Both the position numbers and the translations under genes were made by a program. From Haloterrigena turkmenica DSM 5511 (GTDB taxonomy: Archaea; Halobacteriota; Halobacteria; Halobacteriales; Natrialbaceae), in contig NC_013743.1 in NCBI RefSeq assembly GCF_000025325.1, forward strand, positions 868,001 to 932,000: a stretch of 64,000 nucleotides of DNA. Reading direction: 5' to 3'. A model generated the notes under the pieces. It made no database searches and was not told the origin of the DNA. It saw only the letters and a program-made list of their open reading frames with translations. Below, piece by piece: positions 8,305 to 39,818 of the stretch (positions are counted from its first letter, which is position 1; every line of letters starts with the position of its first letter).

Positions 8305-9432
8305 TTAGCTTTCGAGGGTCTCGGCCCAGTCGAACTCGAGGCCCTCGTGGACGACGAACTCGAGGGCGTTGATCAGATAGTGGGCGACGACGACGACCAG
8401 GAAGCTCCCGGTGACGACGAAGATCGCCGCGAGGACGAACCCGAGCAGTCCGGTGACGAGGATGCCGACCGACCCCTGCATCCCGTGGCCGAGAGCGAAC
8501 GCGATCGAGGAGACGACCGCCAGCAGCCACGGATCAAGGCCGAAGCCGGTCGAGAGCGCGCCGATCAGCGCCGCCCGGAACAGCAACTCTTCGAAGCCGG
8601 CGATCAGCGGAAGGACGAACGCCAGCAGCATCAGCCACTGCCGCGTCGTGTCCGGCGCCAGCAGCGTCCGTAACTGCTCGTCGTGGTCGAATCCGACGTG
8701 CGTCGCCGCCGCGGCGCCGATCTCGTTGGCCGCGTAGAGGACGAGGCCGATCGCTATGCCCCACGCGAGCCCCTGCGAGAGGTACGCTACCGAGAACTCG
8801 ACCCCCAGTGCGCTGACGGGGATGCCCGTGTAGACGACCGCCCCGAGGAGGACGCCCGCGAACAGTCCCTGCGAGAGCGCGACGTTCGCCAGCAGCTCTC
8901 CCGCGGACAGCGACTGCGGATCGAGTTCCTGCCGCGGCCGTCGGTCGGTGTGCGCGCCGGACCCGGGTCCCGTCGCGGATTCGGAGGGCGACCGCGCCCG
9001 CTGCGTCTCGACCGCTCGCTCGGCGGTCGTCGGATCGTTCGTGTTGGGCGGAGCGTCGGCGGGTGTCGGATCGTTGGAGGACGTCGGTTCGTCGGGGGTC
9101 GCGTCTCGACCGTCGCGATCGCTCGTCGCGTCGGACCACGATTCGACCGTCGCACCCGTGTCCGCATCCGTACTCGAGTCGGCGCCCTCCGACTCGTCGC
9201 TGTCGACGGGCGCTGCCGAATCGGTCGAGTCGCGGCGATCGCTTCCCGAGTCGAGTTCAGATGTGTCGCCTCGAGCGCTCGAGGCGGACGCGGACGGCGA
9301 AGACGCGCTATCGGCGCCGTCGCTGGCAGTCGACTCGTCGTCGGAGAACGCGCTCTGTGTCAGGTGTGAGAGAACGAGCAGCAAAACGAGGACGACGCCC
9401 GTAACGCCCGCGAACGTCGCCCACTGAGCCAT
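8305..9432 (-). CDS. CPBP (CAAX/Abi) family intramembrane metalloprotease with long acidic linker
   Basis: 375 residues. One N-terminal TM (VTGVVLVLLLVLSHL) is followed by about 140 residues very rich in Ser, Asp and Thr, then a multi-TM CPBP domain. The three family motifs are there: GFEELLFRAALIG (EExxxR), FALGHGMQG and VAHYLINALEF (HxxxN). Members cleave or modify membrane substrates; in archaea the targets are mostly unknown. The gene starts 6 bp after the lonB stop, so both membrane proteases are likely co-expressed. The linker is low complexity and probably disordered. Confidence 0.8.
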   Translation of the reverse strand: MAQWATFAGVTGVVLVLLLVLSHLTQSAFSDDESTASDGADSASSPSASASSARGDTSELDSGSDRRDSTDSAAPVDSDESEGADSSTDADTGATVESWSDATSDRDGRDATPDEPTSSNDPTPADAPPNTNDPTTAERAVETQRARSPSESATGPGSGAHTDRRPRQELDPQSLSAGELLANVALSQGLFAGVLLGAVVYTGIPVSALGVEFSVAYLSQGLAWGIAIGLVLYAANEIGAAAATHVGFDHDEQLRTLLAPDTTRQWLMLLAFVLPLIAGFEELLFRAALIGALSTGFGLDPWLLAVVSSIAFALGHGMQGSVGILVTGLLGFVLAAIFVVTGSFLVVVVAHYLINALEFVVHEGLEFDWAETLES

Positions 9433-9438
9433 TGATCG

Positions 9439-11634
9439 TTACTGCGGGCTCGGGTTGGAGCCGCTGCCGACGGAGCCCTGGCTCCCCTCGAACGCGTTGC
9501 TGGTGATCGACTTGAGGCGATCGACCAGGGAGTCCTTCTTGGGTTCGCCCATCAGCGCGACGTCGAGCACTTCGCTGATGTTCGAACACGGGATGATCTC
9601 GATCATCTCCTCGTACTCGTCTTCGATCATCACGTCCTGCTCGTTGGCCTTCGGGATGATGACCTTCGTACAGCCGGCCTTCGCAGCGGCCTCGATCTTG
9701 TGGGTGACCCCGCCGACCGGGAGCACGTCGCCCCGGACCGACAGCGAGCCGGTCATCGCGACCGTCTGGTCGACCGGGATGTCCTCCAAGGCGCTGATGA
9801 CGGCGGTCGCCACCGTGATGGAGGCGGAGTCGCCGTCGACGCCCTGTTGGCCGGCCTGGACGAACTGGATGTGGATGTCCTTCTCCGAGAGATCGACGTC
9901 GGAGAACTTCTTGATGATCGCGGAGACGTTCTGGACCGACTCCTCGGCCATCTCCTTGAGCTTCCCGGTGGCGATCACCTGACCGCCGCCCTGTGCGGGC
10001 GCGATCTCGGCCATGACCGGGAGCATGATCCCGGAGTCCTCGCCCATGACGGCGAGGCCGTTGACCCGTCCCTCGACGCCGCCCTCGGCGACCTCGAGTT
10101 CGTAGTCCTTGCGGCGCTCGATGTAGTCGTCGGCGAGCTGTTGCTCGATCGAGCGCGAGCGGCCCTTGGCCTGCAGGACGTCCTCGCGGGTGGTGAACTC
10201 CCGGTCCTCCGAGCGGGCGATGTCGCCCGCGACGCGGACGAGCCCGCCCAGCGTCCGGAAGTGCAGCGTGAGGTGATTCTTCCGACCCGAGCGACGTTTG
10301 GCCTCGAGGATGACCTCCTCGACGGCGTCGTCGGTGAAGTGGGGGAGGCGACCGTCGCGTTCGACCTCCTGAGCGATGAAGCGCGCGTACTTGCGCCGCA
10401 TCTCGGGGGTGTCCTCGATGGTGTCCTCCATGTAGACCTCGTACCCGTACCCCTTGATACGGTTCCGGAGCGCGGGGTGCATGTTCTCCATCGCGTCCAG
10501 GTTGCCGGCCGCGATCATGATGAAGTCACAGGGGACGGGCTCGGTCTGGACCATCGCGCCCGAGGAGCGCTCGGACTGGCCCGTGATGGCGAACTCGCCC
10601 TCCTGGATCGCGGTCATCAGCTTCTGCTGGGTGCGGATGTCGAGCGTGTTGATCTCGTCGACGAACAGCACGCCCTTGTTGGCCTGATGGATCGAGCCGG
10701 GTTCGACGCGGTCGTGGCTCGGCGTCTCCATGCCGCCGGACTGGAACGGGTCGTGGCGGACGTCGCCCAGCAGCGCGCCGGCGTGGGCGCCGGTCGCGTC
10801 CTCGAAGGGCGCGGTGCGCTTGTCGCCGTTGTTGACGATCATGTTGGGCACCATCGCGTCGCTGCCGCGGTTCGTGTAGCGGAAGATCAGCCAGACGATC
10901 CCGGCTGCGAGGATGCCGAGCAAGATGTTCCCGACGACGAGGATCGCGTACGCGAGGATGATCGCGACGATGATCCACATCAGAATCGAGCGCATCTGGT
11001 TGCGCTTGCGGGCTTCCTCCTTGTGGGCGTCGATGATCTGTTCGCCCTTCCCTGCCGGGACGGTTCGGACCTTCGGCTCGTTGCCGTCGTCCGGGTTGTG
11101 GTAGACTAAGACGTCCTGGAGATCCTCCTGGGGGAGCAGCTGACTCATCGCCTTCGCCAGCATCGACTTGCCGGTCCCCGGCGAGCCGATCATCATGACG
11201 TGGCGACGCTGCTTGGCTGCCTTGATGATGATATCGCGTGCTTCGTCCTGGCCGATGACCTGGTCGACGAGTCGGTCGGGAACCTCGATCTCCTCCGTCG
11301 AATCGATCTTGAGACCGCCGAGCAGATCGTCCTCGGCGATATCCTCGTCGATTTCGACGCCCGGATCGACCTCGACCTCGCTGCCGAGATCCTCGACGGT
11401 TTCGATGTCGTCGCCCTCGCCCGAGTCCGGTTCGAACTCGTCGATGGGATCGTCGAACTCGTCCCCGTCGTCGACGTCGTCGCGCTGGTCACCGTCCTTC
11501 TCGAGCGGCGACCGTTCTCCCTGACGCTCCGACTCCGGCTCCGTGTCCTGGGGCCGTGGCTGGGCCTGCTCCTCGTCAGGTCCAGCGTCGGTGGCGTCTT
11601 CGGGAGGGTCGTCAACGTTCGTATCGTTACTCAT
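9439..11634 (-). CDS. lonB: Archaeal membrane-anchored ATP-dependent protease LonB
   Basis: 731 residues starting MSNDTNVDD. Order: ~100-residue extremely acidic leader, AAA+ module with Walker [10 protein letters not shown], two adjacent TM helices inserted in the AAA domain (around residues 215-260), Walker [10 protein letters not shown], then the Lon protease domain with the Ser in [12 protein letters not shown] (near 600) and the Lys in [14 protein letters not shown] (near 645). The catalytic Ser-Lys dyad is intact. LonB is the essential membrane protease of haloarchaea and controls lipid and carotenoid enzymes in Haloferax (established for the family). A TATA box at 11673-11680 gives a short leader. 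Confidence 0.95.
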
Positions 11635-24573: not shown

Positions 24574-26349
24574 ATGACCCTCCCGTCGGATCGGTCTGAC
24601 GACCGAGTAAGTAGACGTGCCGTGCTCGCCGCTGGAAGTACTGGGATTGCCGGTTCCGTAGCCGGCTGTATGGACCGTATTCAGCGGCTCATCACCGGTG
24701 CGGCCAGCGATCAACTCTCGATAACTATCCTCACGCTGCCCACTGATAACGACCGACAGGCGATTCAGATCGCCCGCCAGCTCGAGAAGAACCTCAACGC
24801 GGTTGGTATCAACGTCCGGATCGAACCCCGCGCCAACGCCGAGTTGCTGCAGACGGTCTTGCTCGAGCACGACTTCGATTGTTACATCAGCAGCCACCCG
24901 GGCGGCTACGACCCCGACTTTCTGTACGAGACGTTTCACTCGAAGTTCGCCCCCGAATCCGGCTGGCAGAACCCCTACGGGTTCGTAGATACCGAGATCG
25001 ACGAGGTACTCGAGCGACAGCGCTCGACAACGGGGTCGGAACGAAAGGACGCCGTCGGCGAAGCGCTCGACCGACTGGCGCAAACGCACCCGATCGTGCC
25101 CATCTGCATTCCCGACGAGCGGCGACTCGTCAGAACGGATCGGTTCGACGGCTGGAACGACCACCACCTCGGGACCCAACTCGGCTACCTCGGTCTCGAG
25201 CCCGACGAGGACGACTTCGAGGACGAGGTGGTCCTGAACGCGGTGATCACCGACTCGAGCCCGTCGAGAAACCTCAACCCGCTTGCGGCGCCGTACCGCT
25301 ACCGGGGCCCGTTCATCGATCTCCTCTATGATTCGATTGCGACCGAAGACAACGGGGAACTCCGGCCGTGGCTCGCCGAGTCCTTGGAGTGGGACGGCTC
25401 GACCGCGACGGTCACGCTCCGATCGAACTGTCGGTTCCACGACGGCGAGCCGGTGTCCGCCGACGACGTCAAATTCACGTACGAATTTCTGGACGACACG
25501 TCACTCGGCGTCCGCGACGGACAGTCTCCGGCGCCGAGATACCGCGGACTGGGCGACGCCGTTGAATCGGTGACGGCCGTCGACGATCTGACCCTCCGGA
25601 TGCGATTCGGGACGAGCGACGAAGTCGGCAAACTGGCCTTTACGGTCCCGATTCTCCCGAAACACATCTGGAAGACGGCGGTCGAAGACCGCCTCGAAAA
25701 CGGCGCCGAGCCCATCCAGGGGACGTGGGATATCGTGACCACCGACGAGATCTCGCCGATCGGCAGCGGTCCGTACGCACTCGCCGAGCGGGAGCCACGG
25801 TCGCACATTCGATTCGAGCGCTTCGGCGATCATTTCACCAGTCGCGAGTACGTCGACCTGCCGGAACCCCGCGTCGACGAACTCGTCTTTCACGTCGAGC
25901 CGAACAGTAGCGCGGCCATCGAACAACTCGAGGCGGGGAACGCCGATGTGACGGCCTCCAGTCTCGGAGCGGAAACGGTCGGGGACGCTCCGTCCGGCCT
26001 CGAACTCGTCGAGTCCAAGTCGTGGTCGTTCTATCACATCGGGTTCAACGTCCGGAACTCGCCGTTCAGCAACCTCCACTTCCGACGAAACGTCGCGCGA
26101 TTGATCGACAGGGAATCGCTCGTGGCGGACGTCTTCAACGGGCAGGCGAGCCCGTCCGTCACACCGGTTACGGAGGAGTGGGTACCGGACGACCTCGAGT
26201 GGGACGGTGCCGCACCATACGCGCCCTTTTTCCGTGATGAAACGAACAGTGGGGATACGGGAGAACTGGACGTCGAACGGGCGAAGCGATCCTTCGAACG
26301 GCACGGATTTCAGTACGACGAAGAGGGAGAATACATCGTGAGGTCCTGA
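24574..26349 (+). CDS. ABC transporter substrate-binding protein (SBP family 5), circularly permuted
   Basis: 591 residues. Tat lipoprotein signal: VSRRAVLAAGSTGIAGSVAGC. Residues ~48-200 (LSITILTLPTDNDRQ..., ELLQTVLLEHDFDCYISS, GYDPDFLYETF, DTEIDEVLERQRS, ALDRLAQTHPIVPI) correspond to the C-terminal part of DppA/OppA proteins. Residues ~225-591 (RNLNPLAAPYRYRG, ELRPWLAESLEWDG, DDVKFTYEF, PIGSGPYAL, NLHFRRNVARLIDRESLVADVF, DVERAKRSFERHGF) correspond to their N-terminal part. So the normal order is swapped. Binds peptides or similar solutes outside the cell. Its stop overlaps the PAP2 start. Confidence 0.85.
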   Translation: MTLPSDRSDDRVSRRAVLAAGSTGIAGSVAGCMDRIQRLITGAASDQLSITILTLPTDNDRQAIQIARQLEKNLNAVGINVRIEPRANAELLQTVLLEHDFDCYISSHPGGYDPDFLYETFHSKFAPESGWQNPYGFVDTEIDEVLERQRSTTGSERKDAVGEALDRLAQTHPIVPICIPDERRLVRTDRFDGWNDHHLGTQLGYLGLEPDEDDFEDEVVLNAVITDSSPSRNLNPLAAPYRYRGPFIDLLYDSIATEDNGELRPWLAESLEWDGSTATVTLRSNCRFHDGEPVSADDVKFTYEFLDDTSLGVRDGQSPAPRYRGLGDAVESVTAVDDLTLRMRFGTSDEVGKLAFTVPILPKHIWKTAVEDRLENGAEPIQGTWDIVTTDEISPIGSGPYALAEREPRSHIRFERFGDHFTSREYVDLPEPRVDELVFHVEPNSSAAIEQLEAGNADVTASSLGAETVGDAPSGLELVESKSWSFYHIGFNVRNSPFSNLHFRRNVARLIDRESLVADVFNGQASPSVTPVTEEWVPDDLEWDGAAPYAPFFRDETNSGDTGELDVERAKRSFERHGFQYDEEGEYIVRS

Positions 26350-27369: not shown

Positions 27370-27900
27370 TCACTCCCGGATTTCGATCTCGGTCGCGGCG
27401 ACGAGGCCGCGGTCGGCCGCGTCGTCTCGATTGACTCGCGCTGTGAGCGTGTAGCAACCGGGATCGACGGGTGCCCACTCGTTCTCGGCGATCCGGATGC
27501 GCTGGGGCCACTCGCGGCTGAATCGCTTGCGCTCGCCGCGGGCGAAGGAAAACGCGTCGGGACGGTCGGGTACCGGACGCTCGAGCCGCGAGGCGGCCGT
27601 CGCTCCGTCGACGGCCCAGACCCACCGCTCGGGGGAGTCGGTCCGCAGCCGGATCGGAAACGGGAGCCGATTGCGGAACTCGACGCGGACGGCGACGGGG
27701 TCGCCGCGCTCGTAGACGTCGCGGTCGGTCGCGATCGAGACCGCGACGGCCCGCGTGCGGAGCGCGACGGGCACGAACGCGTGGCTGAACGCGTCCCAGT
27801 TGATCGTGCGGCCAGTCTCGTCCGCGCTCGACGCGGGCGCGAACGGATCGTCCGCGTCCCGTTCGAGCGCGTTCGAGTCGTCGACTCGTTTTCGCGTCAT
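27370..27900 (-). CDS. BsuPI-like domain protein, last gene of dpp operon
   Basis: 176 residues, starts MTRKRVDDSN; its ATG overlaps the dppF stop (ATGA). No signal peptide. The C-terminal ~120 residues read as one Ig-like beta sandwich: VSIATDRDVYERGDPVAVRVEFRNRLPFPIRL, WVWAVDG, FARGERKRFSREW, VDPGCYTLTARVN, resembling the BsuPI proteinase-inhibitor/DUF domain. Conserved as a trailing gene of haloarchaeal peptide transporters as far as I recall. Function unknown; maybe modulates the ATPase it is coupled to. Confidence 0.55.
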   Translation of the reverse strand: MTRKRVDDSNALERDADDPFAPASSADETGRTINWDAFSHAFVPVALRTRAVAVSIATDRDVYERGDPVAVRVEFRNRLPFPIRLRTDSPERWVWAVDGATAASRLERPVPDRPDAFSFARGERKRFSREWPQRIRIAENEWAPVDPGCYTLTARVNRDDAADRGLVAATEIEIRE

Positions 27901-29207
27901 CGGTGTGGTGTCTCCGTCTCGGGGTCGTCCGGCAGGTGGTCCGCGTACGCGTCGTCGAACCGGTGACAGGCGATCGAACGGTCGCCGTCGCCGCCGTCGA
28001 CCGGCTCGAGTCGCGGCCGATCGGTCTCGCACGGCGTCGCGAAGGCCGAGGCGAGTCGCGCCCGCCCGTCGGCGATATCGCCGGCCGCGATGGCCTCGAG
28101 TGCGTCCGCGAGGACGCGGTCGGCGTCGTCGTCCCGAAGTTCGGTCGGGATGTCGAACGCGTCGCGGATCGCGGCGGGAACGTCCTCATCGGCCACCGAG
28201 GTAGCGAGTACCGACTCGAGGCCGTCTTCGGCGTCGGCGAGTCGTCTCCGCAAGCGGAGGATCCCCCGAATCGCGTCGGACTCGAGGTCGTACTCGGCGG
28301 GCGGGAGCACCGACGGACAGCGCGTGTGGAACCGGCAGCCCGACGGACAGTCGCCCGGGGAGGGGACGGCGCCCTCGAGGACGATCCGGTCGCCCTCCCA
28401 GCGTGGATCGGGTTCGGGGATCGCCGAGCGCAGCGCCGCCGTGTAGGGGTGTGACGGGTCGTCGAAGACCGCCTCGGTCGGGCCGACGTCGACGATCTTC
28501 CCGAGGTACATCACGGCGACTCGGTCCGCGACGTGCGCGACGATCGAGAGGTCGTGAGCGATGAAGAGATAGGCGAGTCCGAACTCGTCTTGCAGGTCGG
28601 CCAGCAGGTTGCAGAGCTGGGCCTGGACCGAGACGTCCAGCGACGACACCGGTTCGTCGCAGACGACGAGTTCCGGTTCGACGGCCAGCGCGCGGGCGAT
28701 GGCGATTCGCTGTTGCTGGCCGCCGGAGAACTCGTGAGGGTACCGCTCAGCGTGGCCTGGCGCGAGCCCGACGGTCTCGAGCAGGTTGCGGACGCGGGCG
28801 TCGCGCTCCGACGGCGGGACGACGTCGTGCACTTCGAGGGGTTCGCCGATGGTGTCGCCGACGGTCAACCGCGGGTTCAGGCTCGCGCCGGGGTTCTGCG
28901 GGACGTACTGGACGTCCGTCCGCACCGCTCGGAGTTCGGATCGGGAGCAGGCGGTCAGGTCGGTGCCGCGGTAGGACACCGTGCCGGCGGTCGGCTCGGT
29001 GAGCCGAAGCAGCGAGCGGGCCAGCGAACTCTTGCCGCAGCCGCTCTCTCCGACCAGTCCGAGCGTCTCCCCCTCGCGGATCTCGAGATCGACGCCGTCG
29101 ACGGCCCTGATCGTGCGTTCGTTGCCCAGCAGTCGGTCGAGGACGCCGTCGGCCGTCACGTACTCCTTCTCGAGGCCCTCGACGCGGAGCAGCGGTTCGT
29201 TGCTCAC
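27897..29207 (-). CDS. dppF: Oligopeptide/dipeptide ABC transporter ATP-binding protein (DppF type) with extended C terminus
   Basis: 436 residues. Walker A GESGCGKSS, Q-loop, signature FSGGQQQRIAIARAL, Walker B LVVCDEPVSSLD and switch His in IAHDLSIV are intact. After the oligo_HPY Cys cluster (CPSGCRFHTRCPSVLPP) there are ~105 extra residues (acidic, helical) before the terminal CETDRP...ACHRF piece, i.e. an insertion inside the usual iron-sulfur-like Cys module. Energises uptake with DppD. ATGA overlap with dppD on one side and the BsuPI-like gene on the other. Confidence 0.88.
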   Translation of the reverse strand: MSNEPLLRVEGLEKEYVTADGVLDRLLGNERTIRAVDGVDLEIREGETLGLVGESGCGKSSLARSLLRLTEPTAGTVSYRGTDLTACSRSELRAVRTDVQYVPQNPGASLNPRLTVGDTIGEPLEVHDVVPPSERDARVRNLLETVGLAPGHAERYPHEFSGGQQQRIAIARALAVEPELVVCDEPVSSLDVSVQAQLCNLLADLQDEFGLAYLFIAHDLSIVAHVADRVAVMYLGKIVDVGPTEAVFDDPSHPYTAALRSAIPEPDPRWEGDRIVLEGAVPSPGDCPSGCRFHTRCPSVLPPAEYDLESDAIRGILRLRRRLADAEDGLESVLATSVADEDVPAAIRDAFDIPTELRDDDADRVLADALEAIAAGDIADGRARLASAFATPCETDRPRLEPVDGGDGDRSIACHRFDDAYADHLPDDPETETPHR

Positions 29208-30271
29208 TCGGACTCACCCCCGTCTCCGTCCTCGCCCCTGACGACGACATCGTAGTCCAGCCCGTCCTCGAGGACGCCGGTGTACTCGTGGCAGGCCGCG
29301 AGGTGGGCGTCGGGGGCCGCTTCGAGCGGCGTCGCGGCCGTCCCGGTCTCCGCGTCGACGAGCGGCGGGTCCCGGGTCGCACAGCAGGACTCGGCGTACG
29401 GACAGCGCGGGTGGAACCGACAGCCCGTCGGGGGATCGACGAGGTCGGGCGCGCTGCCGGGGATCGTCGCCAGTCGGTCGCGGTCGTCACCGAAGCGGGG
29501 GATCGACGCCATCAGCCCGACCGTGTAGGGGTGTTTGGGATCGTAGTAGAGGTCGTCGACGGTCGCACGCTCGACGATCTGGCCGGCGTACATGACCAGC
29601 ACGCGATCGCAGCGTTCGGCGACGACGCCGAGGTCGTGGGAGACGAACTGGATCGCCGTCTCGAACTCCGCGGCGAGCTCCTCGAGCAACTCGAGAATCT
29701 GCGCTTCGATCGTGACGTCGAGCGCCGTCGTCGGCTCGTCGCAGACGAGCAGGTCGGGCTCGCAGGACAGCGCCATCGCGATGACGATCCGCTGTTGCTG
29801 GCCGCCGGAGAACTCGTGGGGGTAGTCCGCGTAGCGGCGCTCGGCGTCGGGAATGCCGACACGCTCCAGGAGTTCGACCGTCCGTCGGCGGGCTCGCTCG
29901 TCGGTGACGTCCCTGTGGGCGCGGATCGCCTCGGCGATCTGTTCGCCGACGGAGTAGACGGGGTTGAGCGCCGTCTCGGGGTCCTGAAACACCATCGCGA
30001 TCTCGTCGCCGCGGAGCGATCGCAGCTCCGAATCGGAGCACTCCAAGATGTTCCGGTCTCGAAAGCGGATCTCGCCGCCGACGATCTCGCCGGGCTCGTC
30101 GATCAGCCCCAGCAGGGCGAGGCTGGCGACGGTCTTGCCGGCGCCGCTCTCGCCGACGACGGCGAGGCGTTCGCCGCGTTCGATCTCGTAGCTGATCCCG
30201 TCGACCGCGCGGACCACGCCGTCTTCGGTGTAAAACTGGACGACGAGGTCCTCGACTTCGAGCAGCGCCAC
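29204..30271 (-). CDS. dppD: Oligopeptide/dipeptide ABC transporter ATP-binding protein (DppD type)
   Basis: 355 residues. Walker A GESGAGKTV, signature FSGGQQQRIVIAMAL, Walker B LLVCDEPTTALDV, switch His in VSHDLGVVAE, and the oligo_HPY tail with CRFHPRCPYAESCC...CHEY. Normal length. Starts 1 bp after the dppC stop region and overlaps dppF by 4 bp. Confidence 0.9.
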   Translation of the reverse strand: MALLEVEDLVVQFYTEDGVVRAVDGISYEIERGERLAVVGESGAGKTVASLALLGLIDEPGEIVGGEIRFRDRNILECSDSELRSLRGDEIAMVFQDPETALNPVYSVGEQIAEAIRAHRDVTDERARRRTVELLERVGIPDAERRYADYPHEFSGGQQQRIVIAMALSCEPDLLVCDEPTTALDVTIEAQILELLEELAAEFETAIQFVSHDLGVVAERCDRVLVMYAGQIVERATVDDLYYDPKHPYTVGLMASIPRFGDDRDRLATIPGSAPDLVDPPTGCRFHPRCPYAESCCATRDPPLVDAETGTAATPLEAAPDAHLAACHEYTGVLEDGLDYDVVVRGEDGDGGESE

Positions 30272-30272
30272 G

Positions 30273-31343
30273 CTACCGGCGCCTCCGTTCGGCGGTCTCG
30301 CCTCGCGGATCGAGGGCGTCGTTGATCCCGTCGCCGACGAGGTTGATTGCCATCACGAACAGGAAGATCGCCAGCCCGGGGAAGACGGTGCGGTGCCAGT
30401 GGCCGCCGGCGATCGAATCGCGGCCGTCCGCGAGCATCGACCCCCACTCGGCGGTGCTCGGCTCGAGGCCGAGGCCCAGGAATCCCAGCGCCGCGGCCGT
30501 CAGGACGACCGTCCCGACGTTCAGCGTCGCCTGGACGATGACGGGGGCGACGGCGTTCGGAAGGACGTGTCTGGCGATGACGGTTCGATCCGGCGTCCCG
30601 AGGGCCCTCGCGGCGGTGACGTACTCGCGTTCTTTCACCGAGAGGACCTCGCCGCGCAACAGGCGAGCGTAGCCGATCCAGCCGGTCAGCGCGAGCGCGG
30701 CGACGATATTCCAGTAGCCGCGGCCGACGACCGCGACGACGGCGATCGCGAGCACCAGGAACGGGAACGCGTAGAGGGTGTCGACGACCCGCATGACGAG
30801 TTCGTCGACCCAGCCGCCGAAGTAGCCGGCGATCGCGCCCAGCGGAACCCCGACGACGAGCGCGAGCGCGACGGCGACGACCCCGATGCTGAGGCTGAAC
30901 CGCCCGCCGACGAGGACCCGAGAGAACAGGTCCCGGCCCGCCCAGTCGGTCCCGAAGGGGTGGGCCACCGACGGCCCGGCGTTGGGCGGCCCGACGTACA
31001 TCTCGGCGGGATCGTACGGCGCCAGCGAGAACGGCTGGACCGTGATCGTGTACTCGGCCGTCGAGAACGCGATCGGTCGGGCGAAGACCGCGACGATCGA
31101 GAGCACCGCGATGATCGCGAGGCCGAGCATCGCTGTCCGATTCGATCGAAATCGACTCCAAGCATCTTCGAACCGGCCTCGAGACAGGGGCGCGGCGTCG
31201 ACTGCCCGGCCGTCAGTCGCTCGACCGTCGACCCAGGGATCGACGGCGGCGTCGTCGCGGTCGGCCGCGACCGCCTCGTCGAACCCCTCGATGCGAATCC
31301 GGCCGCGCTCGGTCGTCGATCGATCTCGTGTCTCTCGGGTCAT
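30273..31343 (-). CDS. dppC: Oligopeptide/dipeptide ABC transporter permease (DppC type)
   Basis: 356 residues. A ~65-residue charged cytoplasmic leader is followed by six TM helices. Contains FGTDWAGRDLFSRVLVGGRFSLSIG and the EAA loop (REYVTAARALGTPDRTVIARHVLPNAVAPVIV). An N-terminal OppC-type TM comes before the large loop. The long N-terminal leader is more extended than in bacterial DppC. Forms the membrane channel with DppB. Confidence 0.9.
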   Translation of the reverse strand: MTRETRDRSTTERGRIRIEGFDEAVAADRDDAAVDPWVDGRATDGRAVDAAPLSRGRFEDAWSRFRSNRTAMLGLAIIAVLSIVAVFARPIAFSTAEYTITVQPFSLAPYDPAEMYVGPPNAGPSVAHPFGTDWAGRDLFSRVLVGGRFSLSIGVVAVALALVVGVPLGAIAGYFGGWVDELVMRVVDTLYAFPFLVLAIAVVAVVGRGYWNIVAALALTGWIGYARLLRGEVLSVKEREYVTAARALGTPDRTVIARHVLPNAVAPVIVQATLNVGTVVLTAAALGFLGLGLEPSTAEWGSMLADGRDSIAGGHWHRTVFPGLAIFLFVMAINLVGDGINDALDPRGETAERRRR

Positions 31344-31353
31344 CGGTCGTATC

Positions 31354-32307
31354 TCACCGTTCGTCTCTGATCCGCGGGTCGAGTACGGCGTAGGCGATAT
31401 CGACGAGCAGGTTCGCGACGACGACCGAGACGGCGATGACCAGCACCGTCGCCTGGACGGTCGGGAAGTCGCGCTGTCCGATGGCGCCGACCAGGAGCCG
31501 CCCCATGCCGGGCCAGGAGAACACCTGCTCGACGACGACCGCGCCGTCGACGAGGAGGGTCAACTGGAGGCCGGCGACGGTGACGACGGCGATCAGGGAG
31601 TTGCGCAGGACGTGTTTGCAGATCACCGTCCGCTCGCGCAGCCCCTTCGCGCGGGCCGTCCGGACGTACGGCGCGTTCAGTTCCCGGAGCATCGACGAGC
31701 GCAGCAGGCGCGCGACGAGCGCGGCCGAGGCCGTCCCGAGCGTGATCGTCGGTAGGACCAGAAACCACAGCGTCTCGAGGCTCAAAAGCGGCGCGTCGGG
31801 CGGAATAACCCGGAACCAGCCGAGGTGAACGCCGAAGACGAACAGGAGGACCAGCCCCAGCCAGAAGTTCGGCGTCGCGATGCCGGCCAGCGCCGCGATG
31901 CGGCTGACCTCGTCGGCGGGTTCGCCCCGCTTGACGGCCGAAACGACGCCGACGGGAATCCCAATCAGGAGCGAACAGAGCCACGCCGCGCCCCCGAGTA
32001 CGAACGTGTAGGGCAACCGATCGGCGATCGTCGCCCCGACGTCGCGACCCGTGATCGGCGACCGGCCGAACTCGAGGACGAGCGCGTCGCGCAGCCAGAA
32101 CAGATACTGCTCCCAGACCGGGCGATCGAGGTTGTACTCGGCTTCCAGGGATTCCCTGACGGCCGGGTCGACCTCCCGAAAGCCGAGGACGGCGTCGATC
32201 GGATCCCCCGGCGTCAAGTGGAGCAAGGAAAACGTCAGGGCCGTCACACCCAGCAGTACCGGAACCGAAACCAGCACCCGCTTTAGGACGTAGTTGGCCA
32301 GCGTCAT
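31354..32307 (-). CDS. dppB: Oligopeptide/dipeptide ABC transporter permease (DppB type)
   Basis: 317 residues, six TM helices. N-terminal NYVLKRVLVSVPVLLGVTALTF, LTPGDPIDAVLG, and the EAA loop SMLRELNAPYVRTARAKGLRERTVICKHVLRNSL. Twenty-four bp after the SBP stop; 10 bp before dppC. Confidence 0.9.
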   Translation of the reverse strand: MTLANYVLKRVLVSVPVLLGVTALTFSLLHLTPGDPIDAVLGFREVDPAVRESLEAEYNLDRPVWEQYLFWLRDALVLEFGRSPITGRDVGATIADRLPYTFVLGGAAWLCSLLIGIPVGVVSAVKRGEPADEVSRIAALAGIATPNFWLGLVLLFVFGVHLGWFRVIPPDAPLLSLETLWFLVLPTITLGTASAALVARLLRSSMLRELNAPYVRTARAKGLRERTVICKHVLRNSLIAVVTVAGLQLTLLVDGAVVVEQVFSWPGMGRLLVGAIGQRDFPTVQATVLVIAVSVVVANLLVDIAYAVLDPRIRDER

Positions 32308-32331: not shown

Positions 32332-33975
32332 TTAGCTGAAGTACTCCTCGACGATTCGCGCTTCGAACTCTGGACCGACGAAGGTCTCGTGGGTCGGCGA
32401 GATCGGCGTGTAGGCCACGGTGCCGGCGCCGTGGAACACGTCCTCGATGATCCGCTCGCGCGGGATGAGTTGGCCGATCCCGCGCCGAACCTTCGGATTG
32501 GAAAACGGCTCGCGGTAGCTCGGATAGCCGAGGAAGTCGACGGCGGCGCCGGTCGTTCGGTCGACGACGAACGCGTCGTCGGCTTCGAACGTCTCGAGGC
32601 TCTCGTTCGGGAGCCCCGTGGTCAGGTGAATATCGCCCGCCTCGAGGGCGCCGCGCCGGGCCGACGATTCGGTGACGATCCGCATCGTCACGGTCTCGAT
32701 CGGCGGCGTCTCGGGGACGCCGTTGCTCCCGTCGTGCCAGTGGTCCTCGTTGGCGACCAGCCGCCAGAGGGTGGCGGGCTCGTGTTCCTCGAACGCGTAC
32801 GGGCCGGTTCCGACCGGTCGCTCGGTGATGTCGTGCGTGCCGTCCGCGACGGCCTTCGGGAGGATCGGCACCTGCGCGATCGCCGTTTCCAGCGGCCCGT
32901 ACGGCCGCCGGAGGGAAATTTCGATCTCGTGGTCGCCGAGGATCTCTGCGCTCTCGTACCAGTTGTACACGTCCTGCTCGCTCGGCGACCCCTCGTATCG
33001 CTCGAGGGTCGCACGGACGTCCGCGGCGGTAAACGGCTCGCCGGTGTGAAATTGGACGCCCTCTCGCAGGTCGAACCGCCAGGTCGTCTCGTCGATCCGG
33101 TGCCAGTCGGTCGCGAGCAGCGGCCGAGCGCTCCCGTCGAAGTCGATCTCGAGGAGCTGTTCGTAGAGCAGGCCGGTGGCCATATACGAGACGTCGTCGG
33201 CCGCCCGGACCGGATCGTAGCTGTCGATCTTCGTCCCTGCGTCGCCGACGAGCTCGGTCTCGTCGGTGGTGAGCTCCGTGTACACGCCGAGCGTCGGCGC
33301 GTAGATCGACTTGTACTCATCGCCGGGGACCGGATACGTCCGGAATCCGTCGATCGCGTCGGCTCGGTAGGTGACGATCTCTTCGGGCGCGCGAACGAAC
33401 GACAGCGGCGATTCCTTGACGAGGAGTTCCTGCAACTCCTCGTAGATCGCGACGCGCTCGTCGCCGTCGACGGTCGCAACGCCTTCGTCGATGAGCTCGT
33501 CGACCCGCTCGTTCTCGTAGTGGTTGATGTTGAGGCCGGTCGGAGCGAAACTGTCGGAGTGAAAGCCAGGATAGACGTACTGATGCGGATCCCAGCCGCC
33601 GATAAACCCCAGACAGACGAGCGCGTTCTCCTCGTTGGCGGCCATGTTGTTGACCAGATCGATGTAGGACGTCCACTCGAGGGTCTCGAACTCGACGTCG
33701 AACAGATCGGTGCCGTCCAGTTCGTGCTGGACCAACTGCGCCCACCGCTTTCGCCCCTCGGTCTCGGCGTTCGAGTAAATCGTCGTCTCGACGGGCGGTT
33801 CGACGCCCGCCTCCTGAAAGCCCTCGAAGATGAGTCTCTCGGGGTCGCTATCGAGGTCGATCCCGATATCGGTGCTGATACAGCCGGCCGCACCGGCCAT
33901 GCCGAACCCCCCAAGTCCGGCGAGCACCGATCGACGAGGGATTCGGTCAGAATCACCCTCACCAGTGTGTGCCAT
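32332..33975 (-). CDS. ABC transporter substrate-binding protein (SBP family 5), circularly permuted, second copy
   Basis: 547 residues; Tat lipoprotein signal (IPRRSVLAGLGGFGMAGAAGC). Residues ~42-215 (DPERLIFEGFQEAGVE, VQHELDGTDLFDVEFE, GFIGGWDPHQYVYPGFHS, NERVDELIDEGV, YEELQELLVKESPLSFV) match the C-terminal region of DppA-type SBPs. Residues ~245-547 (SYDPVRAADDVSYMATGLLYEQLLE, RPLLATDWHRIDETTWRFDLREGVQFHTGEPFTAADV, PVGTGPYAF, PFSNPKVRRGIGQLIPRERIIEDVFHGAG) match the N-terminal region. First gene of dppBCDF. The break point differs from that of the 24.5-kb SBP: here the DPEKA-type segment lies at the N terminus. Confidence 0.85.
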   Translation of the reverse strand: MAHTGEGDSDRIPRRSVLAGLGGFGMAGAAGCISTDIGIDLDSDPERLIFEGFQEAGVEPPVETTIYSNAETEGRKRWAQLVQHELDGTDLFDVEFETLEWTSYIDLVNNMAANEENALVCLGFIGGWDPHQYVYPGFHSDSFAPTGLNINHYENERVDELIDEGVATVDGDERVAIYEELQELLVKESPLSFVRAPEEIVTYRADAIDGFRTYPVPGDEYKSIYAPTLGVYTELTTDETELVGDAGTKIDSYDPVRAADDVSYMATGLLYEQLLEIDFDGSARPLLATDWHRIDETTWRFDLREGVQFHTGEPFTAADVRATLERYEGSPSEQDVYNWYESAEILGDHEIEISLRRPYGPLETAIAQVPILPKAVADGTHDITERPVGTGPYAFEEHEPATLWRLVANEDHWHDGSNGVPETPPIETVTMRIVTESSARRGALEAGDIHLTTGLPNESLETFEADDAFVVDRTTGAAVDFLGYPSYREPFSNPKVRRGIGQLIPRERIIEDVFHGAGTVAYTPISPTHETFVGPEFEARIVEEYFS

Positions 33976-37655: not shown

Positions 37656-39818
37656 CTACCGGTCGGACGGAGAGAGGGGATTCGACACCTCGCTCGTGAC
37701 GTACTCGTGGCGTTTGCCCCGTAGTCGCATCGCCGTCAGCGCCTTGTGCGTCGCCGGCTCGTCGAACAGCGCGCGTTCGTCGCGCCGGATGCGATCCTCC
37801 GGAACGTCCCCGTCGGCGCGAAGCTCCGCGAACGCTCGGTCGCACTGGTCGCGAATCCGCGTCCAGCACGCGCGCTCGTCGACGCCGAGTTCGTGACAGA
37901 CCGTCGCGACCAGTTCGGCGAGGTGGTTCTGGAAGAGCGCGTAGTACAGTTTCCGGTGAAGGTCCGCCTCGCCGTCGGCCTCGAGGTCCGAATCCGGATA
38001 CGGCTCGAGCGAGAGTCCGCGGGTCTCGAGCCGTCGGCCGTGAACCCGAATTCCGCCGAGGTCCCGGACCAGCGTCGCCGTCGGGGTCGCGTCCGCGGCG
38101 TCGAAGACGACCAGGCTGTTCTGGAGGTGGCTCTCGAGAGCGATGCCGTACGCGGTACACAGCCGCAACTGGTCGGGGACGACGACCGCAGCGTAGCGCT
38201 CGAGGAATTCGAGGGCGGCGTCCGACCGGTCCGATCGGCCCCGCGCCGTCGCGTACCGCTCGATCAGGTCGCAGACGAGGGGACGGTTCGTGGCCGGCGA
38301 GTCGGCGACGAGACTCGAGGCGACGACAGGTATCGCGTCGTCCGGGCCGTTCCGGACGAGCGGGTGCGCTGCGGGATTCGTTCGCAGCAGTCCCGACAGG
38401 TGCCGAGCGTCGTCGTACGCCTCGCCGCACGGCCGGGGGCCGCCGGGCGCGTGGTAGCAGGTCGCCGCGGGTTCGGCCAGCAGCCCCAGCGACTCGAAGG
38501 ACTCCCGCTCCGCGATCGTCGTCACGATGGCGGTAACTCGCGGCCCGTTGGCCACGGCCTGGGGCGACAGCGTCCGCACGACGTTGGTCGTCTGGACGGG
38601 AATCGCGAGTTTGAGATGCGGCAGCGGCCCGTCGACGTGGAACGTTCGGTCGGTGTCGTACGGAACCACCGTGCGGAGATTCAGCTGCGGCGTCGCCGGG
38701 TGTGCGTAGTCGGGAATCGGAACGACGCGACCGTCGTCGATTCGGCCGGCGTAGCGGTCCGGAACTGTCCGGTGATACTGGAGGGGGTGGACGGGAACGA
38801 CGGCGTACGCGTCGGGGTCGCGGCCCGTCGGCAGCGCTCGCTCGAGGGCGCCCTCGAGGCCGTCGAACATCGCGGACAAGCGGTCGGTGAGCTGTTTGCC
38901 GTCGTCCCCGTCTTCGTTCTCGTTCCCGCCGTCCGCGTGCTCCCCGGCGCGCGTCTCGAGGGCGTACTCCCGATCGACGGCGACGAACCGGAGATCGATC
39001 CGGTCGGTGAACTCGGGCGCGTAGGCCAGCCCCTCCGCCGGGGTCATTCCGCGTCGGATCTTGCCGCTCGGATGGAACGGATGGCCGTCGGTGACGATCC
39101 GCTCGAACGCGGCGGCGTCGTCGGCCGCCGGAATGCCGTCCGCGACGGCCTTGAGGGGCGATTCGCTCGTGCCGCCACCGTCGTAGTCGACCCGTCTCCC
39201 GTGAACGGTCCCCGCCAGCCGCGCGAGCGCGAGGTTGGCGACGCTCTCGGCCACTTCCCCGCGGATCCGCTCGGCCTGCTCGGGGTCGCTGAACGCGCCC
39301 TCGCACTCGAGGATCGGAACGAGGTCGACCGGATGCGCCAGTTCCGTACTTTCATCCTCGGACCAGCGGAGGACCGGCCCGGTCAACCGGAACCGATCAT
39401 AGCCGTGTCGGGCCGCGATCGGGACGACGAGCGCGCTCCCGGAGGCCAGACACGGAACGATGCTGAGTTTCCGACACGTCTCGGGGACCGCACCGCGGAC
39501 GTCCTCGACGATCGCTCGCAGAGTGGCTCCCTCGAGCGGGTCGCGGGGCGTCGATACGAGGTGCTCTCGCGGAGCGGCCGACTCGAGATCGACGAATCGG
39601 GCGGCGCGGACGCCGTCCGGATCGCCGCGGAGCACCCCGCGTGCGAACCGATGGAGAATCTCGCGGCGAGCGTCCTCGAGGGCCTCGAGGTAGGCCGCCT
39701 CGACAGGCCTCGAGAGATCGTGCTGTCGGGCGTAGTCGACCGCGGCGCCGAACGCCGCTCGGTCGGCGCCCGTACGAAGGGTGACGCGATCATGCGGCCC
39801 GCGGTTCGTCCCAGTCAT
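37656..39818 (-). CDS. IucA/IucC-family siderophore synthetase (NIS)
   Basis: 720 residues. NIS-synthetase marks: GHPFHPSGKIRRGMTPAEGLAYAPEF (ATP-binding HP..HP..K motif, near 245), VVPVHPLQ, TPQLNLRTVV, HLKLAIPVQTTNVVRTL, and the second-domain ALESHLQNSLVVF (usually EAHxQN) and DLGGIRV. The C-terminal FhuF-like iron-reductase segment is not obvious. It joins polyamine or hydroxamate amines to citrate or its acids. No decarboxylase, N-hydroxylase or acyltransferase is next to it, so it may work with unlinked genes. Acidic insertion NENEDGDDGK in the middle. Confidence 0.88.
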   Translation of the reverse strand: MTGTNRGPHDRVTLRTGADRAAFGAAVDYARQHDLSRPVEAAYLEALEDARREILHRFARGVLRGDPDGVRAARFVDLESAAPREHLVSTPRDPLEGATLRAIVEDVRGAVPETCRKLSIVPCLASGSALVVPIAARHGYDRFRLTGPVLRWSEDESTELAHPVDLVPILECEGAFSDPEQAERIRGEVAESVANLALARLAGTVHGRRVDYDGGGTSESPLKAVADGIPAADDAAAFERIVTDGHPFHPSGKIRRGMTPAEGLAYAPEFTDRIDLRFVAVDREYALETRAGEHADGGNENEDGDDGKQLTDRLSAMFDGLEGALERALPTGRDPDAYAVVPVHPLQYHRTVPDRYAGRIDDGRVVPIPDYAHPATPQLNLRTVVPYDTDRTFHVDGPLPHLKLAIPVQTTNVVRTLSPQAVANGPRVTAIVTTIAERESFESLGLLAEPAATCYHAPGGPRPCGEAYDDARHLSGLLRTNPAAHPLVRNGPDDAIPVVASSLVADSPATNRPLVCDLIERYATARGRSDRSDAALEFLERYAAVVVPDQLRLCTAYGIALESHLQNSLVVFDAADATPTATLVRDLGGIRVHGRRLETRGLSLEPYPDSDLEADGEADLHRKLYYALFQNHLAELVATVCHELGVDERACWTRIRDQCDRAFAELRADGDVPEDRIRRDERALFDEPATHKALTAMRLRGKRHEYVTSEVSNPLSPSDR

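Follow-up and report, generated by a model that had tools for sequence, protein, structure and literature searches.

The window analysed here, a stretch of 64,000 nucleotides from Haloterrigena turkmenica DSM 5511 (contig NC_013743.1, positions 868,001 to 932,000), carries on its minus strand an open reading frame (ORF) that runs from position 33975 down to 32332 and encodes a protein of 547 aa, here named P0002. On the basis of this ORF, its Pfam match, its reversed-order alignment to the solved structure 5u4o and its dN/dS ratio, P0002 was classified as a permuted family-5 substrate-binding lipoprotein of the 'alpha' class. The original prediction placed the gene at the head of dppBCDF, and ORF and Pfam analysis agrees: directly downstream, in the order P0002, dppB, dppC, dppD, dppF and all on the minus strand, lie the importer genes for a dppB-like permease (31354..32307; BPD_transp_1), which is separated from P0002 by 24 nt, a dppC-like permease (30273..31343; BPD_transp_1 and OppC_N), a dppD-like ATPase (29204..30271; ABC_tran, oligo_HPY and the OppD/DppD models) and a dppF-like ATPase (27897..29207; ABC_tran and oligo_HPY, with model matches). 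The dppF-like ATPase continues for approximately 130 residues past its oligo_HPY match. A second permuted family-5 protein of the window, P0005 or copy A (24574..26349, plus strand), was assigned to a 'gamma' class from its alignments, its tails and its placement in a clade of its own. Near the peptide-transport genes, at 37656-39818, Pfam also identifies an IucA/IucC-type siderophore synthetase with an FhuF-like domain.

Within P0002, residues 1-32 (33880..33975) form a signal peptide with an RR pair at positions 14-15 and a lipobox ending at Cys32, as deduced from the sequence and its orthologues; R14, R15, G31 and C32 are invariant among 12 aligned orthologues, and by these motifs the region is taken to be a Tat lipoprotein signal. 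It is followed by the helix DPERLIFEGFQEA (residues 44-56, 33808..33846), which comparison of tails indicates has moved to the N-terminus with the break point just before it, and which is helical in the AlphaFold2 model. Residues 62-226 (33298..33792) correspond to the canonical C-terminal half of family 5, here placed first (5u4o 356-497; segC HMM at 67-216), and residues 241-545 (32341..33255) to the canonical N-terminal half, placed second (5u4o 74-331; model compared with 5u4o). Between the two halves, residues 227-240 (33256..33297) represent the join of the old C-terminus to the old N-terminus by only a few linker residues, as comparison with canonical termini shows.

The SBP_bac_5 profile (PF00496) recognises P0002 with 204.7 bits against a cut-off of 32.4, in two stretches of which the best joins residues 284-531 to profile positions 3-253. 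Both lobes are present and can be aligned to solved members of the family, in two stretches on 5u4o, yet the canonical N-to-C order of the lobes is reversed, and P0002 is thus a permuted variant of SBP_bac_5 rather than a standard member. Its best NCBIfam model (144 of 600 bits) is the NikA/Opp5A nickel-binding equivalog NF045468, whose score of 144.2 bits lies below the curated cut-off of 600. NCBIfam models match mainly the N-half of the permuted proteins and fall below their own cut-offs, which serves as a warning that family models mis-describe permuted family-5 proteins. The dN/dS ratio of P0002 is 0.22-0.24 relative to four same-genus orthologues and the gene is under purifying selection.

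The claim that C-lobe-type sequence comes first in P0002 and N-lobe-type sequence later was borne out by alignment to the 5u4o chain, in which residues 269-527 match positions 74-331 (i-E 5e-36) and residues 55-202 match positions 356-497 (i-E 2e-8), a reversal far beyond chance. Copy A is reversed too, its residues 250-532 aligning to 1xoc 51-312 and its residues 44-203 to 6npo 380-536. Colinear alignment to a non-permuted family, the outcome that would speak against permutation, did not occur for either protein, and no full-length colinear solved chain was present among the best 60 of 86, 60 of 69, 60 of 107 and 60 of 104 matches of four sequence searches, an absence among the matches listed that is no proof of absence. 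The AlphaFold2 model of P0002 is of middling confidence (pLDDT 70.4, pTM 0.64). Its residues 234-547 align to residues 42-345 of the 5u4o chain with a Z-score of 22.3 at 3.5 Å, and against canonical family-5 structures in general Z reaches 22.9, with the alignment covering about residues 230-547. In the fold comparison, which covered mainly residues 236-547, canonical family-5 proteins alone occupy the best 50 matches listed (TM-score by query ≤0.43), and no permuted family-5 structure is found among these. For copy A, the model predicted without an alignment was unusable (pLDDT 34.5) and was set aside.

Break points were located by comparing the tails beside each break with the linkers of canonical relatives. 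P0002 ends in ...FEARIVEEYFS and resumes, after the lipobox linker, with DPERLIFEGFQEAG, while copy A holds the equivalent helix at its C-terminus (LDVERAKRSFERHGFQYDEEGEYIVRS); in canonical relatives the P0002-type cut falls between ..EEYLG and YDPEKAATLLEEGF.., that is, just before the helix YDPExAxxLLxxG. The tails therefore uphold the proposal that the two proteins have different break points, with this helix N-terminal in one and C-terminal in the other, and the predicted spacing of some 20 residues was a fair estimate, the copy A cut lying approximately 27 residues beyond that of P0002 when counted on the tails and approximately 18 if the helix alone is counted. In the copy A class the cut follows the YDPExAxxLL helix plus the succeeding hairpin, in the beta class it directly follows the helix, the zeta class includes two forms, cut before and after the helix, and one further protein (L039) is cut inside an insert of the N-terminal lobe. 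By these comparisons the break points of P0002 and copy A are real, and are two among at least four.

The H. turkmenica genome holds 16 SBP_bac_5 genes, derived from 18 matches of which two are second stretches of permuted genes. Five of the 16 are permuted (L004, which is P0002, L005, L006, which is copy A, L008 and L010) and 11 are canonical, eight of the latter being judged by a continuous Pfam match as they lie beyond the reach of the C-segment model. Among named genera, alpha orthologues are present in Natrarchaeobius, Natrialba, Salinadaptatus, Natrinema and Natribaculum, and the other classes of permuted protein occur widely across haloarchaeal genomes. In relatives, genes of the copy A class are frequently paired in tandem, approximately 1 kb apart (G028:C3:852704-854440 and 855434-857206; G079:C1:214331-216064 and 217095-218852), and some relatives have a permuted beta-class operon and a zeta-class operon as divergent neighbours (L301, 5834-7813 on the minus and 8374-10350 on the plus strand; L302), an arrangement that recalls the alpha/gamma pair of the window. 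Some binding-protein genes are divided into two ORFs at the lobe junction, by frameshift or fission (L394, the same as L177, 1461-2186 and 2218-3093, plus strand; L302, 10217-11287 and 11312-11851, plus strand). In 69 loci (L080-L148), non-haloarchaeal save for the haloarchaeon L121 and including some that did not yield both segments, no ORF was classed as permuted. In non-haloarchaeal genomes of the same phylum, two matches spanning both lobes (L377 and L378) are permuted and all 11 other loci are canonical, while all three alphaproteobacterial loci retrieved, chosen for looking colinear, are permuted (L387-L389, plasmid genes of Nitratireductor, Ketogulonicigenium and Neorhizobium). The idea that permutation is confined to haloarchaea is ruled out by L377, L378 and L387-L389.

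Taken together, P0002 very probably serves a Dpp/Opp-type importer as a working extracellular binding lipoprotein, permuted in place, separately from copy A and as one of several such permutations. Its mature domain is circularly permuted behind a retained signal peptide and an acidic or Gly-rich linker; the new termini immediately precede the YDPExAxxLL helix of the C-terminal lobe, and the old N- and C-termini are joined almost directly. Since only a few residues join the old termini and since the model of P0002 matches canonical family-5 proteins over residues 234-547, the protein is expected to fold into the usual two-lobed clamp, which would bind a peptide-like or metal-complex ligand and deliver it to DppBC. 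Fold and function were most likely left unchanged and the permutation structurally near-neutral.

The permutation might instead have been adaptive, in that the lipid tether is attached to the second lobe instead of the first and the clamp sits differently on the permeases; tethering was suggested by the authors of the TpMglB-2 study as a reason for the permutation of that protein (PMC4990184), and the haloarchaeal cases do have an N-terminal lipobox. We nonetheless consider this explanation unlikely, given that orthologous operons use either form and that the signal peptides of the alphaproteobacterial proteins L387-L389 are without an evident lipobox, which implies that a lipid tether is not required. 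The permuted protein L377 (2233-3972, minus strand), from a non-haloarchaeal archaeon, has a C-terminal PGF-CTERM match and is possibly anchored at its other end, which likewise argues against the tether as the cause.

With regard to the relationship between P0002 and copy A, canonical-order alignments of both segments were obtained for 247 of 249 distinct proteins, and 83 of these were picked by hand for a tree. The 16 rows of the copy A class form one clade (SH-aLRT 96), the P0002 class falls in a different clade together with canonical proteins, and unpermuted proteins lie between the two. Forcing both classes into one clade was rejected (AU p=0.000237, lnL 73 lower, 83 rows), and P0002 and copy A are separate permutations. 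Of the two origins offered in the original prediction, a duplicated-then-trimmed ancestor or repeated permutation, the second is thus supported, by this rejection and by the unpermuted proteins in between, while there is no support for one duplicated ancestor shared by both window genes, since a duplicated lobe was found in none of the ORFs sampled. A single ancient permutation from such an ancestor, with trimming that shifted the break points and with the unpermuted relatives as reversions, would sit well with break points only about 27 residues apart and with the apparent possibility of reversal within beta, where the joins look alike. It is nevertheless improbable: a single clade is rejected (p=0.00024), many reversals would be required given that the outside families and most relatives are unpermuted, and the duplicated intermediate was not found among the ORFs sampled.

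Unpermuted and permuted forms interleave across haloarchaea, and the 83-row tree requires 12 changes of order, although such counts cannot separate gains from reversals. With dppB added, the sub-family trees require three order changes each in alpha (37 rows), in beta (26 of 67 rows, and likewise on all 67) and in zeta (31 rows); columns of the binding protein alone give two, three and three changes, respectively, and the adjacent dppB gene alone three, three and four. In the alpha set dppB lies no more than 500 nt downstream in all 37 rows. A single permuted clade was rejected in beta (p=0.0007) and in zeta (p=8e-41, or p=0.0002 for the helix-last subset of the zeta set), the rejection being weaker when all zeta permuted rows were joined on the 83-row tree (p=0.033), and was weakly rejected in alpha (p=0.027). 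The number of alpha permutations is unsure, since the binding-protein columns give two changes and dppB gives three. For beta, several independent gains had been considered, and after denser sampling one gain with two reversals proved as parsimonious as three gains; the similarity of the joins among permuted beta genes (..TDLSDLQEGG) tips the balance towards a single gain followed by reversals.

Direct comparison of close relatives bears on how the order was changed. The permuted L299 (from genome G096) and the canonical L300 (from G113) both head dppBCDF in the same operon order; their signal peptides are identical at 27 of 33 positions (82%), their lobes at 301/414 and 133/183 positions (73% each) with the order swapped, and their flanking DNA at 75.6% over 491 nt upstream and 74.6% over 1134 nt downstream. 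A second pair, L289 and L301, agrees in 74% of the signal over 35 residues and in 70% and 66% of the lobes. The signal peptide and the surroundings thus stay in place while the mature domain is reordered. Descent of the C-half and N-half of P0002 from two different binding proteins, through recombination or through fission and fusion, is likewise improbable. The split genes of relatives (L394/L177 in alpha, L302 in zeta) do supply the halves that a fission-fusion route needs, although they may be frameshifts. For both lobes, however, the canonical proteins nearest to P0002 are L149-L159 (49% and 41% identity to L154), which head the same operon type, and this choice of the same unpermuted relatives by both lobes counts against P0002 being a chimera of two proteins; moreover, in the close pairs one lobe is roughly as well conserved as the other (73%/73% and 70%/66%), and the lobe-split phylogeny that had been proposed as a check gave comparable counts of changes for the N-only and C-only trees (12 and 11). 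The congruence of well-supported lobe trees within each permuted clade that would exclude a chimera was largely observed. That the order of P0002 is an assembly or annotation artefact, a reading in favour of which no point was found, can practically be dismissed in view of the purifying selection on the gene and of full-length colinear ORFs of 41-92% identity in same-genus genomes, Natrinema, Natrialba, Natrarchaeobius, Salinadaptatus and Natribaculum.

For permutation in place, the mature part would most likely have been duplicated in tandem and in frame within each event, after which the leading N-half and the trailing C-half were lost; duplication in frame with subsequent loss of redundant halves is a general model of permutation (PMC3320104). 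The search for tandem-duplicated intermediates that accompanied the original prediction yielded none among 412 ORFs with the N-segment and 391 with the C-segment, in what is a limited sampling, and two flagged N-segment cases proved to be splits by an insert rather than duplications. The terminal redundancy expected after duplication amounts to at most five residues (L262) and is usually absent. Each of the separate events may still have included a duplication step.

More broadly, and tentatively, the family-5 genes of haloarchaea and of some other prokaryotes may constitute a hot spot at which circular permutation recurs and is partly reversible, and in which the mature domain flips behind a fixed signal peptide in orthologous operons at a few favoured cut sites round one helix, the forms being functionally interchangeable and their order drifting almost neutrally. 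Repeated swaps at slightly different cut sites represent a natural experiment on protein rearrangement, and the existence of canonical and permuted orthologues that are 73% identical and share locus and operon means that haloarchaea amenable to genetics offer a direct test of the mechanism, reversibility and functional cost of permutation.

Circular permutations in nature are usually encountered as single, ancient events, and that of DNA methyltransferases occurred several times. Permutation within the one methyltransferase family comes with documented duplication intermediates (PMC3320104), in contrast to family 5, for which none was found among the ORFs studied here, while the halves of ribose-binding protein treated in PMC10601554 are engineered, unlike the permutation that arose naturally in family 5. 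Searches of a library of open-licence papers listed none that describes permuted binding proteins of family 5. P0002 shares both lobes and the operon type with canonical family-5 proteins (DppA, OppA, NikA, GsiB and 5u4o) and has the opposite order of halves. The closest precedent is TpMglB-2 (Tp0684) of Treponema pallidum, a permuted ligand-binding protein of an ABC importer for which the term 'Type Ic / Cluster Bc' was proposed (PMC4990184, accessible text). P0002 likewise has, by its sequence, a circularly permuted topology, and both are natural permutations of a tethered, two-lobed binding protein; TpMglB-2 keeps ligand binding, which for P0002 is predicted. According to the same portion of that source, TpMglB-2 has a type I / cluster B sugar-binding fold permuted in its N lobe, whereas P0002 belongs to the peptide/nickel family 5 and is broken in the second lobe, and the matches listed for P0002 are family-5 by sequence and by fold, the fold part covering mainly residues 236-547. 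Unlike TpMglB-2 as described there, family 5 is cut at several places and includes orthologues that occupy the same operon unpermuted, and it is this recurrence, together with the pairs permuted in place, that is the surprising part.
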